Shown here piece by piece: positions 41,075 to 47,561 of a DNA stretch of 64,000 nucleotides (position 1 is its first letter; each line of letters begins with the position of its first letter). The notes under the pieces were generated by a model. The model was not told the origin of the DNA and did not search any database. It worked only from the letters and a program-made list of their open reading frames with translations. Source of the DNA: Bacteroidales bacterium (lineage in GTDB: Bacteria > Planctomycetota > Planctomycetia > Gemmatales > Gemmataceae); the NCBI GenBank assembly GCA_026931725.1, contig JAIXLE010000115.1, positions 1 through 64,000 on the forward strand, read 5' to 3'. A program made the position numbers and the translations under genes.

Positions 41075-41201
41075 TCACCACGCATCCCGAACTACCGGGA
41101 TCGCGCCATCTGGAAACCATACTCACCCTGACCTTTGCCGATACCCAGCGGGCTTTCGCGTGCCTGTACGGCTATCTTCACCGGAAAGGGTGTGTGCCAC
41201 T
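41075..41201. other. Leader segment between the riboswitch and the start codon
   Basis: This segment holds a small hairpin (ATCCCG at 41084-41089 with CGGGAT at 41096-41101) and a GGAAAGGG ribosome-binding-like run before the start codon. I see no convincing leader peptide. Confidence 0.35.
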
Positions 41202-42464
41202 GTGCCTGAGTTTGTTCTCGGTCTGAAATGTAAAAGCTGCGGCAAGCTGTACCCCAAGCAACCCATCAACTTCTGCACCGAGGACTTCGGCCCGCTGGAA
41301 GTGGTCTACGATTACGAGGCCATCCGCCCGCACGTCAGCCGCGAGAAGATCGAACGCCGCCCGAAGACGATGTGGCGCTACCGGGAACTGCTCCCCATTG
41401 ACGGGGAACCCACGGTCGGCCCACAAGTCGGGGGCACCCCGCTCATTCGCGCGGATCGGCTCGCCGAGGCTATCGGTGTCGAAAAGCTCTGGATCAAGAA
41501 TGATGCCGTCAACTTCCCGTCGCTGTCCTTCAAGGATCGGGTCGTTTCGGTCGCACTGTCCAAGGCCCGCGAGTTCGGCTTCACCACGGTCGGCTGTGCG
41601 AGTACCGGCAACCTCGCCAATAGCGTTGCCGCCAATGCCGCCCAGGCCGGGTTGGATACCTTCATCCTCGTGCCCGCGGACCTGGAACGCGCCAAGATTC
41701 TCGGCACCAGCGTCTACGGTGCCCGCCTCATCGGCGTGACCGGCACCTATGACGAGGTCAACCGCCTCTGTTCCCAGATTGCTCTGAAATACAATTTCGG
41801 CTTCGTGAACGTCAATCTGCGGCCATTTTATGGAGAAGGGTCCAAATCCTTCGGCTTCGAGATTGCCGAGGATCTGGGCTGGCGATTCCCCCAGCACGTC
41901 GTTTGCCCGATGGCCGGGGGCAGCCTCATCGGCAAGATTCACAAGGCGTTCGAGGAACTCGTGGCTGTGGGACTCGTCGAGGGGCCGGTCACAACCAAGA
42001 TGTACGGTGCCCAGGCGAGCGGTTGCAACCCCATCGCCGACTGTGTCAAATCTGGCCGCGAACGACACAAGCCGGTTCGGAAACCGAACACCATCTGCAA
42101 GTCGCTGGCCATTGGCGACCCGGCGGATGGCTACTTCTCCGCGAAGCTCATTCAGCAGACCGGCGGTTGGGCTGAAGATGTGAACGATGACGAAATCGTT
42201 GAGAACATGCTGCTGCTCGCCCGCACCGAGGGGGTCTTTGCCGAAACGGCTGGCGGCGTGACCCTGGCGGTCGCCCGGAAACTCATCGAGCAAGGCCGGA
42301 TTCCCCGTGATGAAGAAATCGTCATCTGCATCACCGGCAACGGCCTGAAAACACAGGATGCCATCGCCGAAGCCGTCGGGGAACCCGCCATCATCAAGCC
42401 GAGCCTGACCGCGTTCGATGAACTGTTCGCGGAAGCCCATCAGCCGGAACCGATGTTGGTGTAA
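41202..42464 (+). CDS. thrC: Threonine-synthase-like PLP enzyme under SAM-riboswitch control
   Basis: This 420-residue fold-type II PLP enzyme of the threonine synthase family acts on O-phosphohomoserine. The N-terminus has a possible zinc site (Cys10-x2-Cys13 and Cys25 in NFCTEDFGPLE). The PLP lysine is Lys111 in LSFKDR, and the phosphate-binding loop is ASTGNLANS. GTG 41202 reads M-PEFVLGLKC and gives the family's short N-terminus. True threonine synthases are not normally SAM-repressed in bacteria. The riboswitch and the sulfur-carrier/E1/desulfurase genes downstream raise the possibility that it makes homocysteine from O-phosphohomoserine and a protein thiocarboxylate. That reassignment is inference; plain threonine synthesis is the default. 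Confidence 0.85.
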   Translation: MPEFVLGLKCKSCGKLYPKQPINFCTEDFGPLEVVYDYEAIRPHVSREKIERRPKTMWRYRELLPIDGEPTVGPQVGGTPLIRADRLAEAIGVEKLWIKNDAVNFPSLSFKDRVVSVALSKAREFGFTTVGCASTGNLANSVAANAAQAGLDTFILVPADLERAKILGTSVYGARLIGVTGTYDEVNRLCSQIALKYNFGFVNVNLRPFYGEGSKSFGFEIAEDLGWRFPQHVVCPMAGGSLIGKIHKAFEELVAVGLVEGPVTTKMYGAQASGCNPIADCVKSGRERHKPVRKPNTICKSLAIGDPADGYFSAKLIQQTGGWAEDVNDDEIVENMLLLARTEGVFAETAGGVTLAVARKLIEQGRIPRDEEIVICITGNGLKTQDAIAEAVGEPAIIKPSLTAFDELFAEAHQPEPMLV

Positions 42465-42481: not shown

Positions 42482-43354
42482 ATGCCGCTCGCGTTCGATG
42501 CCACGCTAAAGTCGATCGTCGCTGGTCGGCCCGGCGACTTCAGTGAAGTGTTCGGCCTGCCGTCGGAGGGGCCGATCCAACTATTGAACGTCGATTTGTC
42601 CATCGTGACCGCAGCGACCGATGTGGTGCTGGCTTACGGCAAACCGATACACACAATCGTGGATCTGAATTTTCAAACCGGCCCGGATTCGGAGTTGCCC
42701 GCACGGTTGCATACCTACAGCGCGATTCTGAACCAAAAGCACAAGGTGCCCATTCATTCCACATTGGTGCTGATGCGACCGAAGGCCGATCACGAGAAGT
42801 TGACCGGCGTTCACACTTACGGCACCACCCGTAGCGGAGTAGAATTCCGTTATGAAGTGATCCGACTCTGGGAGCAGTCGGTCGAACGCTACCTACATGC
42901 GTCGTTGGGTGTCTTGCCGCTGACGATGTTGTGTAAGATGCCGGAGGATCAACCGTTACCTCAGTCGATGCGAGAGATCGTCCAAGAGATCGAATTGCGG
43001 CTCACCCGTGAAGCCAGTACCGCGGATGCCGCCGTAATCTTGAAGACGACTCACATTCTGGCCGGACTCCGTGTGAAGAAGCAACATCTGCCCGCGATCT
43101 TTCGAGGAGTGGGAATCATGAGCGAACTCACAGCCTACGATGAACTCGTCGAGATGGTGCAGCACGGCGAACAACGCGGCAAAATCAACATGGGTCACGA
43201 GATCCTACTCCGACTCGGCAGCAAACGCCTGGGCGACCCGGATGCTCACACAGTAGAAGAACTCCACACGATTCAGGATCTGGAACGGTTGAACGGCCTG
43301 ATGGATCGGCTCCTGACGGCTCAGTCCTGGGAAGAATTGTTGGCCACGGAATAG
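42482..43354 (+). CDS. Rpn/DUF4351-type PD-(D/E)XK family protein
   Basis: This 290-residue protein resembles the Rpn/transposase-like PD-(D/E)XK nuclease family. The nuclease-like core is LLNVDLSIVTAATDVVLAYG, with IVDLNFQTG (the D/E-x-Q/K position) and then a helix PARLHTYSAILNQKHKVPIHSTLVLMRP. The C-terminal third is helical (about 190-285), with a long Glu/Leu-rich tail typical of the group. These genes are numerous in planctomycetes and are thought to be recombination-promoting or selfish. It sits inside the SAM-controlled cluster 18 bases after the PLP enzyme, so it is co-transcribed but probably not functionally related. Confidence 0.75.
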   Translation: MPLAFDATLKSIVAGRPGDFSEVFGLPSEGPIQLLNVDLSIVTAATDVVLAYGKPIHTIVDLNFQTGPDSELPARLHTYSAILNQKHKVPIHSTLVLMRPKADHEKLTGVHTYGTTRSGVEFRYEVIRLWEQSVERYLHASLGVLPLTMLCKMPEDQPLPQSMREIVQEIELRLTREASTADAAVILKTTHILAGLRVKKQHLPAIFRGVGIMSELTAYDELVEMVQHGEQRGKINMGHEILLRLGSKRLGDPDAHTVEELHTIQDLERLNGLMDRLLTAQSWEELLATE

Positions 43355-43406: not shown

Positions 43407-43679
43407 ATGCCGATTGTTGTTGATCTTCCACCGCCGATTCGAGAACAAGCCGGTGGGAATAGTCAAGTCACCGTTCAGGGGGCGACCGTCCGTGCCGCGC
43501 TGACGGACTTGATTGCGCAGCATCCCGCCCTGGAAGCCAAACTGTTCGATAAAGGGGAAATCCGCCCCTATATCAACGTCTTCGTCAATGATGAAGACAT
43601 CCGCTTCCTGGATGAAATGGATACCGCCATCGCCGATGGTGTCACCATTGCCCTCGTTCCCGCGGTGGCCGGTGGCTGA
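43407..43679 (+). CDS. MoaD/ThiS-like sulfur carrier protein ending in Gly-Gly
   Basis: This 90-residue beta-grasp protein ends PAVAGG, the di-glycine tail that an E1-type enzyme adenylates and that then carries sulfur as a thiocarboxylate. Conserved features are FVNDEDIRFLDEMDTAIADGVTIALVP. Because the GG is terminal, no processing peptidase is needed, unlike some HcyS-type carriers. Relatives serve Moco, thiamin, cysteine (CysO) or homocysteine (HcyS) synthesis. No moa or thi genes are nearby, but an E1 and a cysteine desulfurase are, so an amino-acid role with the PLP enzyme is inferred. Confidence 0.9.
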   Translation: MPIVVDLPPPIREQAGGNSQVTVQGATVRAALTDLIAQHPALEAKLFDKGEIRPYINVFVNDEDIRFLDEMDTAIADGVTIALVPAVAGG

Positions 43680-44019
43680 ACCGATACCAGAACCCAACCC
43701 ATCCGGCGAGGCCGAATCCCCGGATGGGGCCGCCGTCTTCCCGCTGATCCCGGCGGAACTCGGTGTGCATCCGTTGTTGCTGGCGGTGCTACATGCCTAC
43801 GTCTTCCTCGAAGGGTCCGACCCGCCGGTGCTGAACCCCGCCGCCGCCGAGGAAGCGATGGAGTACATCGCTACCTACCTGCAACGACTTGCCGGGGCGG
43901 AACTGAAACGGATGCGGGAAGACCTGCAAGCCCTCATCGGCTTCGCCAAGCACGACAAATGGCCGAAACAACAGATCCGATTCCTCCAGGACTTCCTCAA
44001 GGATAACGGCGTTGCCTGA
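43672..44019 (+). CDS. Small helical protein between sulfur carrier and E1, unknown
   Basis: This 115-residue protein begins at GTG 43672 (reads M-AEPIPEPN), overlapping the last codons of the carrier gene by 8 bases, which implies coupling. The N-terminal 25 residues are Pro/Glu-rich. The rest is helical with a VLHAYVFLEGSD segment and a charged coiled region (LKRMREDLQALIGFAKHDKW). I see no JAMM motif, so it does not replace the Mec+ hydrolase of mycobacteria. Function is unknown; the position suggests a partner of the sulfur-transfer system. Confidence 0.65.
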   Translation: MAEPIPEPNPSGEAESPDGAAVFPLIPAELGVHPLLLAVLHAYVFLEGSDPPVLNPAAAEEAMEYIATYLQRLAGAELKRMREDLQALIGFAKHDKWPKQQIRFLQDFLKDNGVA

Positions 44020-44075: not shown

Positions 44076-45131
44076 ATGAGTACAGAAAACCCACTCGAAC
44101 GCTACTCCCGTCAAATGCGGGTGCCAGGAATCGGCAAAGCCGGGCAGCAGAAAATCATGGCCAGCCGCGTCACACTCTGCGGAGTCGGGGCGCTCGGCAC
44201 GGTGCTGGCCAATACCCTCGTGCGGGCGGGGGTTGGCTTCCTCCGCGTCATCGACCGAGACTTCGTGGAACCCAGTAACTTGCAACGGCAGGTGCTGTTC
44301 GATGAATCCGACGTGACCGGGAACCTGCCCAAGGCCGAAGCTGCCGCGATCAAACTTCGGCAAATCAATTCGACCGTGACGGTCGAACCTGTCGTCGCCG
44401 ATATTAACCGCACGAATATCGAAGACTTGTGCAAAGACGCGGATTTGATCCTCGATGGCACGGATAACTTTGAGATTCGCTATCTCATCAACGATGTTGC
44501 TATCAAGCAGAACAAACCCTGGGTGTACGGTGGGGCGGTCGGCACCGAAGGGATGACGATGACCATTCTCCCCGGTGAAACGCCCTGCTTGCAATGCGTC
44601 TTCGAGAAGTCACCGGGGCCGGGGGAAGTTGGCACCTGCGAAACGGCGGGCGTACTCGGCCCCATCGTCAGTCTGATTGCCAGTATGCAGGCCGCCGAGG
44701 CACTGAAAATCCTCGCGGGGAAGACCGAAGCCGTGAACCGGGAACTGTTCCTCATCAACCTCTGGGACAACACCTCTCGGCGGATGAAGATTGCGCCACT
44801 GAAAGGCCGCAAGGGGAAATGCCGCTGCTGTGCCCAGCGTCAATTCGAGTGGCTCGAAGGTGAACACGGTACGCAAACCACCAGCCTCTGTGGTCGAAAC
44901 GCCGTGCAGGTAACGCAGCGTCGAGCTACCTCCCTGAGTTTCCCAGACTTGGCCCGGCAACTGGAAACCTCGGGCACCGTCACCGCGAACAAGTTCCTGC
45001 TGAAGTTCGCCGTCACGGACGGTGGCGACCCTTATGAGTTCACGGTGTTCCCCGATGGTCGCGCGATCATCAAAGGCACCGATGACACCGACCGTGCCCG
45101 AACGCTCTACGCCAAATACATCGGCCATTGA
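44076..45131 (+). CDS. MoeB/ThiF-like E1 sulfur-carrier adenylyltransferase
   Basis: This 351-residue E1-like enzyme has the ATP-binding GVGALGTVLANTL, the signature DRDFVEPSNLQRQVLFDESD, the catalytic Cys region TCETAGVLGP, and two CxxC pairs (CLQC and CRCC) for structural zinc. A C-terminal domain of about 80 residues (from LARQLETSG to the end, with FTVFPDGRAIIKGTDD) replaces the rhodanese of MoeBR-type proteins. It should adenylate the Gly-Gly end of the carrier encoded 400 bases upstream. Like MoeB/ThiF it does not supply sulfur; the cysteine desulfurase at 46410 could do that. The spacing fits one operon. Confidence 0.92.
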   Translation: MSTENPLERYSRQMRVPGIGKAGQQKIMASRVTLCGVGALGTVLANTLVRAGVGFLRVIDRDFVEPSNLQRQVLFDESDVTGNLPKAEAAAIKLRQINSTVTVEPVVADINRTNIEDLCKDADLILDGTDNFEIRYLINDVAIKQNKPWVYGGAVGTEGMTMTILPGETPCLQCVFEKSPGPGEVGTCETAGVLGPIVSLIASMQAAEALKILAGKTEAVNRELFLINLWDNTSRRMKIAPLKGRKGKCRCCAQRQFEWLEGEHGTQTTSLCGRNAVQVTQRRATSLSFPDLARQLETSGTVTANKFLLKFAVTDGGDPYEFTVFPDGRAIIKGTDDTDRARTLYAKYIGH

Positions 45132-45171: not shown

Positions 45172-45792
45172 ATGCCCGTCCGCGAGATGGCCTCGCAGCA
45201 ATCGTTGCTCCCGATCGCTCCGCCGAGTGATCTATTACGTCTGAGTGTACACCAGTATCATCAGATGGTTGAAGCCGGAATCTTGACGGAGCAGGATCGT
45301 TATGAGCTGCTCAGTGGCTGCATCGTGGCGAGGAAAACTATTCACCCTCCACATGCTTATGTTATTGGTCGATTATTTCGTCGGCTCAATACATTGCTTC
45401 CTGACGATTGGTTGTTGAATACACAATTGCCGATTACGTTGCAGAATGCCAAGAGTGAATTATTCCCAGATTTGGCTATTGTAAGAGGGCCAGACACGCT
45501 GTACAAACATCGGCATCCTGGGGCAGGTGATTCCGAGATTAGTGTGGAAGTGGCAGATTCCTTACTAGAACGGGATCATACGGTCAAGATGGCGATTTAT
45601 GCCACTGCGAAGATTCCACAATATTGGATCGTGAATCTGCCCGCTCGCTGCGTGGAAGTCTACACCCAACCGCGAGGCGGGAAGAGCCCCCAATACCGAA
45701 CCCGAACCGATTACCCCGCCGATGCGACCCTGCCCGTCATCCTGGCCGGGCAGGCTCTTGGATCGGTCACCGTTGCTGAGATTCTCCCGTGA
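45172..45792 (+). CDS. Uma2-family putative endonuclease, copy 1
   Basis: This 206-residue PD-(D/E)XK-type protein has a Uma2 domain: YHQMVEAGILTEQDRYELLSG, SELFPDLAIVRG (catalytic Asp), ISVEVADSLL (Glu) and the AIYATAKIPQYWIVN segment (Lys region). The family is abundant in planctomycetes and cyanobacteria and is of unknown function; some are selfish. GGGAGAGG lies before the ATG. The first two-thirds of the gene is AT-richer than its neighbours, whereas the last 183 bases are nearly identical to the next gene. It is embedded in the SAM-controlled cluster, probably as an insertion. Confidence 0.85.
   Translation: MPVREMASQQSLLPIAPPSDLLRLSVHQYHQMVEAGILTEQDRYELLSGCIVARKTIHPPHAYVIGRLFRRLNTLLPDDWLLNTQLPITLQNAKSELFPDLAIVRGPDTLYKHRHPGAGDSEISVEVADSLLERDHTVKMAIYATAKIPQYWIVNLPARCVEVYTQPRGGKSPQYRTRTDYPADATLPVILAGQALGSVTVAEILP
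45610..45792 (+). repeat. 183-base direct repeat shared by the two Uma2 genes, copy 1
   Basis: These 183 bases match 46231-46413 with only three mismatches (by eye: A to T near 45747, and two in the CTTGGATCG region near 45764-45768). The remainder of each gene is clearly diverged. Recent gene conversion or partial duplication is the likely cause. Confidence 0.85.
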
Positions 45793-45804: not shown

Positions 45805-46413
45805 ATGTCGAAGCCGCAGGGACTCCCTCCGTTACCGAAAACCCGCTATCGGCGGTTCCGCTTGGAGGAATATCATAAACTCATCCAATTGGGCGTGCTG
45901 CAAGAAGATGATCGGTGTGAACTGCTCGATGGAGTGATTACCGCATCCATGCCGCCCAATCCGCCGCACACGAAAGCCATGCGGCAACTTCTGCGTCGCC
46001 TGCCTCCGCTGCTGCCCGAAGAAGACTATATTGTGAGCATTCAAGACCCCATCACGATTTTGTCGGTTCCTGATACCGAACCGCAGCCCGATATGATGGT
46101 GGCCATCGGTCCTGAACAGCGCTACCAAGGGCGCAACCCGAATGGGCGCGATATTCTCCTCGTGATTGAAATATCCGACACTTCCTTGACCGATGATCGC
46201 ACGACCAAGTTGGCCCTGTATGCAGCCGAGAAGATTCCACAATATTGGATCGTGAATCTGCCCGCTCGCTGCGTGGAAGTCTACACCCAACCGCGAGGCG
46301 GGAAGAGCCCCCAATACCGAACCCGAACCGATTACCCCGCCGATGCGACCCTGCCCGTCTTCCTGGCCGGGCAGGCTCTTGGATCGCTAACCGTTGCTGA
46401 GATTCTCCCGTGA
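45805..46413 (+). CDS. Uma2-family putative endonuclease, copy 2
   Basis: This 202-residue paralogue of the preceding gene has the same order of motifs: EYHKLIQLGVLQEDDRCELLDG, TEPQPDMMVAIG and ILLVIEISDTSLTDDRTTKLALYAAEKIPQYWIVN. It begins 12 bases after the first copy. Its last 61 codons are almost identical to those of copy 1, while its earlier part is GC-richer and diverged, so the two have exchanged 3' ends. The stop overlaps the GTG start of the cysteine desulfurase by 4 bases, which couples the two genes and shows that the insertion kept the downstream gene in the operon. Confidence 0.85.
   Translation: MSKPQGLPPLPKTRYRRFRLEEYHKLIQLGVLQEDDRCELLDGVITASMPPNPPHTKAMRQLLRRLPPLLPEEDYIVSIQDPITILSVPDTEPQPDMMVAIGPEQRYQGRNPNGRDILLVIEISDTSLTDDRTTKLALYAAEKIPQYWIVNLPARCVEVYTQPRGGKSPQYRTRTDYPADATLPVFLAGQALGSLTVAEILP
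46231..46413 (+). repeat. 183-base direct repeat shared by the two Uma2 genes, copy 2
   Basis: This is the partner of 45610-45792; it ends at the shared stop codon, beyond which similarity ceases. Confidence 0.85.
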
Positions 46414-47561
46414 TTTACCTGGATAACGCCGCGACTAGCTTCCCGAAACCCGAAGGTGTCTACGCCGCACTGGATCGGTTCGCCCGTACCGCACTCGCCA
46501 ATCCGGGCCGGGCCGGGCACAAAATGGCGCTCGCGGCCGAACATACCCTCGATGATGGCCGCCATCGCCTCAATCGCCACTTCAACGGCCGTGGGGCGGA
46601 TCGTTGGGTCTTCACGCTCAATTGCACCGATGCTTTGAACATGGCAATCAAAGGTTCCGTTCAAGATGGCGACCATGTCATCACGACGGACCTGGAACAT
46701 AACAGCATAAGCCGACCACTCGTGGCCCTGGCGGAGGCGGGTCGCATCACGCTCACCCGCGTCCCTGCTGATGCCTCGGGAACCGTTGATCCCGAAGCCA
46801 TTCGCGCCGCGATCACGCCGAAAACTCGACTGGTGGCACTAACCCACGCCAGCAACGTCCTCGGCACCATACAACCGATTACCGACATCGCTCGCCTTTG
46901 CCGGGAAGCCTCCGATGCCATCACGGTTCTGATCGACGCGGCCCAGACGGCGGGTGTCGTGCCGATCGACTTGCAGGCTATTCCCATTGATCTTTTGGCG
47001 TTGCCGGGGCACAAGTGCCTGTTCGGCCCCACGGGCACCGGAGCGCTCTACGTCAACCCGCGTATGAAGCTCCGACCGTGGCGGGAAGGCGGCACCGGCG
47101 GCGACTCCTCCACACCCACGCAACCCAGTGAGTTCCCCTATTTCCTCGAAGGCGGAACGCCGAACGTCCTCGGTGTGGCCGGGCTCATCGCGGGGATCGA
47201 CTTCGTGGAAGAACGCGGCGCGGATGCTCTCCGTCAGCATGAGGTGGCCCTGTGCGATCGGGCCCGCGCACAATTGCAGGAAATCGGCGGATTCGAGTTC
47301 TTTGGTCATACCGACCCGACCCGGCGTGTGGGAACGCTGTCGTTCCGCAGCGAGGTTTTGCCCGCACCGGAACTCGGTGGGATTCTCGATCAGGCGTTCG
47401 ACATCGCGGTACGGCCAGGGTTGCACTGTTCGCCGTACATCCACAAGTCCCTCGGTAGCTACCCGGATGGCTTGGTGCGGATGTCACCAGGACCGTTCAC
47501 AACAGAAGCGGAAATCGACCAATGCGTCGCCGCGTTGCGGGAGATTACCAGCGGAGTTTGA
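46410..47561 (+). CDS. Cysteine desulfurase-family PLP enzyme
   Basis: This 383-residue fold-type I PLP aminotransferase starts at GTG (IYLDNAATSFPKPEGV), with the PLP lysine in LPGHKCLFGPTGTG, EGGTPNVLGVAGLIAGIDFV, and the catalytic-site Cys in RPGLHCSPYIHKSLG. This matches the EGID-type desulfurase family. It should take sulfur from cysteine as an enzyme persulfide and is the likely donor for the sulfur carrier encoded at 43407. It is the last gene of the cluster; a GGGC-GTAA-GCCC stem at 47668-47679 and a GAGCC/GGCTC stem near 47585 precede the convergent DinB gene. Confidence 0.9.
   Translation: MIYLDNAATSFPKPEGVYAALDRFARTALANPGRAGHKMALAAEHTLDDGRHRLNRHFNGRGADRWVFTLNCTDALNMAIKGSVQDGDHVITTDLEHNSISRPLVALAEAGRITLTRVPADASGTVDPEAIRAAITPKTRLVALTHASNVLGTIQPITDIARLCREASDAITVLIDAAQTAGVVPIDLQAIPIDLLALPGHKCLFGPTGTGALYVNPRMKLRPWREGGTGGDSSTPTQPSEFPYFLEGGTPNVLGVAGLIAGIDFVEERGADALRQHEVALCDRARAQLQEIGGFEFFGHTDPTRRVGTLSFRSEVLPAPELGGILDQAFDIAVRPGLHCSPYIHKSLGSYPDGLVRMSPGPFTTEAEIDQCVAALREITSGV

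Follow-up and report, generated by a model that had tools for sequence, protein, structure and literature searches.

A short open reading frame (ORF) in a genome of the Gemmataceae separates the gene for a sulfur carrier from that for an E1-like enzyme, and the question raised by this locus is what its 115-aa product contributes there. The initial annotation of the 64,000-nucleotide stretch of DNA analyzed here (the window) had placed this ORF between carrier and E1 with an 8-base overlap at its start, and we confirm this arrangement. The cluster comprises, in order, a threonine-synthase-type (ThrC-type) PLP enzyme, a 290-aa insert, the carrier, the 115-aa protein, the E1, two Uma2-family genes and a cysteine desulfurase, with the following features.

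41160..42464, + strand: threonine-synthase-type PLP enzyme (TIGR00260 above cut-off), candidate thiocarboxylate acceptor
42482..43354, + strand: 290-aa protein without Pfam match, missing at the same place in the relatives compared
43407..43679, + strand: CysO-like/SAMP1-like sulfur carrier of 90 aa with C-terminal AVAGG (PF02597; NF041918 above cut-off; PDB matches)
43672..44019, + strand: 115-aa helical protein (GTG start, stop included; conserved ORF, purifying selection, four-helix model)
44076..45131, + strand: E1-like adenylyltransferase of the ThiF/MoeB family (PF00899) without rhodanese domain
45172..45792, + strand: Uma2-family gene, a frequent but inconstant passenger between E1 and desulfurase
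46410..47561, + strand: cysteine desulfurase family protein (TIGR01977), its position in the cluster conserved

The carrier has a ubiquitin fold and a GG end and is closest to CysO. Its top PDB matches are 4n6e_B, a ThiS/MoaD family protein, and 3dwg_C, the 9.5 kDa culture filtrate antigen cfp10A, which is Mycobacterium tuberculosis CysO. VAGG stands at the carrier stop in 130 of 136 carrier-bearing loci. PF00899 was the sole domain found in the 351 aa of the E1, and a MoeZR-type rhodanese domain is absent from it. The operon contains no CysM-type O-phosphoserine sulfhydrylase; the neighbor of the carrier is the threonine-synthase-type enzyme, the true start of which probably lies downstream of position 41160. 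The clustered cysteine desulfurase is the probable source of sulfur. The 290-aa protein lies outside the conserved cluster, probably as a recent insert; a paralog with 56% identity adjoins a JAMM gene on contig C57 (see below), and these proteins resemble a multi-copy, possibly mobile family. The Uma2-family genes are arranged in tandem (45172-45792 and 45805-46413, both +) and have nearly identical C-terminal stretches, KIPQYWIVNLPARCVEVYTQPRGGKSPQYRTRTDYPADATLP, which suggests a recent duplication or gene conversion.

The 115-aa ORF is a real gene, given that it is encoded in 87 of the 95 genomes of the family sampled (Gemmataceae by record titles, one search) and that pairwise dN/dS is about 0.02-0.1, similar to that of carrier and E1. 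Its GTG start lies within the last codons of the carrier gene. The carrier end GGT GGC TGA includes a GTG that is in frame with the downstream gene, and the closest relatives likewise start inside the GG-stop codons of the carrier, which supports the start call. The 8-nt overlap is restricted to near relatives; elsewhere in the family the two genes are up to about 1.3 kb apart. Being of recent date and not conserved, the overlap does not support the earlier argument for translational coupling. Its lack of conservation also weighs against the alternative that the protein regulates expression of the cluster or the carrier, translationally or transcriptionally, outside the enzyme complex. The position in the operon and the small, acidic nature of the protein (pI 4.7) are compatible with such a role, but no DNA- or RNA-binding family matched and the acidity argues against nucleic-acid binding; we consider regulation distinctly unlikely.

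Neighborhoods of the gene were retrieved for all 87 positive genomes. The carrier is upstream on the same strand in all 85 testable genomes, the contig ending before the carrier position in the other two, and no ortholog away from the carrier was found among these 85. Across 36 genera the gene has been kept beside the carrier. The E1 is downstream in 82 of 84 testable genomes (a contig end was reached in three), and G067 and G093 are true exceptions. In G093, ThrC, carrier and 115-aa gene are together, with E1 and desulfurase on a different contig. In G067, the pair of carrier and 115-aa gene has a NusA-like gene on one side and a convergent nitrite/sulfite-reductase gene on the other, with no ThrC alongside, and the E1 is elsewhere, beside an aspartyl-tRNA-synthetase-like gene (NusA and aspartyl-tRNA synthetase were named by eye from sequence). 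Both separations leave the 115-aa gene with the carrier, to which it is thus most tightly linked physically. The homologs of one genus (g35; L066-L068) carry a His/Asp-rich N-terminal tail, HGPGCNHDHDHDHEHGD, possibly a metal-binding extension.

These separations also bear on the alternative that the ThrC-type PLP enzyme or the E1, and not the carrier, is what the protein assists or regulates, for example, as a subunit for assembly or feedback. ThrC is upstream of the 115-aa gene in 73 of the 87 genomes, and a distance-based co-evolution test, which is blunt for a carrier of 90 aa, did not single out the carrier: partial correlation was highest with ThrC (0.34), followed by E1 (0.27), and was nil with the carrier (-0.06). 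Against this stand the two genomes in which the gene remains with the carrier upon departure of the E1, in one of them also without ThrC alongside. Such a partnership appears unlikely to us, although it has the co-evolution values on its side.

The sequence places the protein in no known family, in agreement with the initial annotation. Pfam, NCBIfam, PADLOC and PHROGs gave nothing credible, a Pfam scan of 33 homologs was likewise negative, including for helical families, and a PDB sequence search returned weak helical matches only, the best being a designed protein. Searches of the PDB with two structure models, and of viral structures with the second model, gave nothing significant, and viral contigs and plasmids contained no match to the protein. 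None of the family libraries searched has an entry for this protein family. The second model (25 sequences; mean pLDDT 88.8) predicts helices at residues 34-48, 56-71, 75-94 and 99-111, preceded by a conserved extended segment, (E/D)GAAVFPLIP.

The protein contains no cysteine, and its invariant residues are mostly glycine, proline and hydrophobics, which makes a role as an enzyme unlikely. There is no conserved His/Asp/Glu metal-site cluster, and the JAMM metal-binding motif HxH...SxxD is absent from the sequence, as had been noted initially, with no Pfam match either. The position in the operon is the one argument for the proposal that the protein supplies a missing catalytic step, as a hydrolase or sulfurtransferase. 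Besides the lack of cysteine, JAMM motif and metal-site cluster, this proposal faces a real JAMM protein encoded in trans and core clusters that exist without the 115-aa protein, and we regard it as extremely improbable.

The JAMM protein corrects the earlier view that a hydrolase is missing. It is a stand-alone protein of 140 aa encoded on contig C57 (L107 1474-1896) next to an argG-like gene, with a Prok-JAB score of 74.5 bits and the motifs ECCGFL and HSHP..S..D. It is a candidate Mec+-type hydrolase acting in trans, and a JAMM (Mec+) hydrolase was found only in trans. Of the 95 Gemmataceae genomes, 84 encode a relative, mostly as a single copy, and in none of the ten loci examined was it linked to the carrier cluster. 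In this genome assembly we found one E1, that of the cluster, and three carriers, namely a ThiS-ThiG fusion, a MoaD beside MoaE and the cluster carrier. A CysK and another threonine synthase, which scores above the curated cut-off, are encoded elsewhere in the genome, so that the ThrC-type enzyme of the cluster could serve a different function.

Clusters of ThrC, carrier and E1, with or without the desulfurase, occur without the 115-aa protein in a sister family of the same order (f2), in a family of the same class (f3) and in genus g32. In g32 (G072 and G073), which belongs to the Gemmataceae, the genes for carrier and E1 are neighbors and the 115-aa gene is absent. An E1 tree nests g32 among genomes that possess the protein and positions f2 and f3 outside; one gain in the ancestor of the Gemmataceae, followed by one loss, suffices to explain this. 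As the same cluster exists without the protein in f2, f3 and g32, the protein is accessory and not part of the core chemistry. In most of the f2 clusters (L137-L142), ThrC and carrier are separated by the gene for a small protein of membrane type, about 110-135 aa long.

A profile search identified eight short relatives (about 80-120 aa) in other planctomycetes (L100-L105, L149 and L150). In the reciprocal direction, a profile built from these relatives alone retrieved the ORF of the window at an E value of 7e-13 and no unrelated ORF, and homology spans helices 1-4 with both profiles. Most of the eight are without the N-terminal EGAAVFPLIP segment. Two further candidates, in G391 (L151) and G383 (L152), were weak matches and were dropped; the gene near the L151 ORF that ends like a ubiquitin-like protein is unrelated, its likeness probably being due to chance. 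None of the eight relatives is linked to a carrier or E1. Hence, the family overall is not tied to sulfur carriers, and only its Gemmataceae branch is. The initial suggestion of an accessory factor specific to this system thus stands in part: the protein is tied to the carrier wherever this could be examined in the Gemmataceae, is under strong selection and belongs to no known family, but orthologs were found only in the Gemmataceae, so that its specificity is to this family and not to the system, which also occurs without it, and its distant relatives lie away from carriers.

The surroundings of these relatives raise the alternative that the 115-aa protein is an immunity-like small helical protein, of the type in polymorphic-toxin immunity repertoires, which ended up in the operon and whose function has nothing to do with sulfur transfer. 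One relative adjoins CdiI_2 (L100), one directly follows an RHS-repeat gene, which it overlaps by 4 nt (L103), one is part of an array including an Imm33-like gene (L150) and one is beside an IS66 transposase (L149), and homology to them is confirmed in both directions. However, nothing around the other four of the eight points to toxins, immunity or mobile elements. Immunity genes undergo fast turnover and rarely keep one genomic site. By contrast, the 115-aa gene has been held beside one partner throughout its 36 genera at the low dN/dS given above, and neither in the window nor at orthologous loci does a toxin gene adjoin it. We consider this alternative rather unlikely. The L150 array itself (G369 C1:164000-173500) consists of small genes with near-identical C-terminal tails and flanking repeats and looks like an immunity-gene cassette array.

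With moderate confidence, we assign the 115-aa protein to a CysO-like sulfur-carrier pathway of the Gemmataceae, in which it would be an accessory subunit that is lineage-specific and non-catalytic. By homology, the cysteine desulfurase would supply sulfur, and the E1 would adenylate the C-terminal GG of the carrier, leading to the carrier thiocarboxylate. The neighboring ThrC-type PLP enzyme, as a putative sulfhydrylase, may use this thiocarboxylate to form a carrier-bound sulfur amino acid, and the stand-alone JAMM hydrolase encoded elsewhere would release the product. Both the direction of sulfur flow and the product are proposed from homology with the CysO pathway. The 115-aa protein would most likely bind the carrier, with or without the E1 or the PLP enzyme, through the EGAAVFPLIP segment and helix faces. 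It could thereby shield or steer the thiocarboxylate, for example, to this pathway as opposed to the ThiS and MoaD routes that would have to share the single E1.

This reading as a carrier partner is based on the invariably upstream position of the carrier, the retention of the carrier in the E1 separations, the dN/dS values, the single gain and the CysO-like nature of the carrier, as well as on the JAMM in trans, the presence of one E1 for three carriers and an actinobacterial precedent of a helical protein. Counting against it are the existence of the cluster without the protein, the lack of a carrier-specific correlation and the unlinked distant relatives. The steering idea is weakened by genus g32, which also has a single E1 and is without the protein. 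A more far-reaching version, which we put forward tentatively and consider rather improbable, is that a helical family that elsewhere occurs in toxin-immunity contexts was co-opted a single time, in the ancestor of the Gemmataceae, to bind a CysO-like carrier, channeling thiocarboxylate from the shared E1 into ThrC-type sulfur-amino-acid synthesis, and so constitutes a new class of dedicated partner. Each carrier of the ThiS, MoaD, CysO and ubiquitin lineage has to reach its proper enzymes, and in many cases a single E1 shared between carriers makes the match. If the proposal is true, then a conserved, dedicated non-catalytic partner would provide a handle on how this match is decided, and also on a candidate branch of carrier-based sulfur-amino-acid synthesis that planctomycetes would run through a ThrC-type enzyme.

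The CysO pathway served as the template for the proposed sulfur route (PMC3227635). Actinobacterial CysO operons carry an uncharacterized helical protein that is almost exclusive to them (PMC1779556, table row 4d). This companion sets a precedent for a helical carrier partner. Kinship of the 115-aa protein with it, which we take to be DUF2017, was considered and rejected, as the 33 homologs gave no such Pfam match at E values of up to 10. Similar to the mycobacterial CysO-CysM-Mec+-MoeZR system, the planctomycete cluster combines a GG-ending, CysO-like carrier with an adjacent PLP gene and an E1 of the MoeB/ThiF type, and a JAMM protein is encoded in the genome. It differs in that the PLP enzyme is of the ThrC type instead of CysM, that the E1 is without a rhodanese domain, the cluster encoding a cysteine desulfurase in its place, and that the JAMM gene is unlinked to the cluster. 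We know of no counterpart of the 115-aa helical protein in the Haloferax SAMP1 system, and the planctomycete cluster differs from SAMP1/HvJAMM1/UbaA in giving no evidence of protein conjugation. The two systems are nevertheless alike in a carrier that, in the planctomycete, scores above the NCBIfam cut-off for SAMP1, in an E1 without a rhodanese domain and in a JAMM protein encoded in trans.
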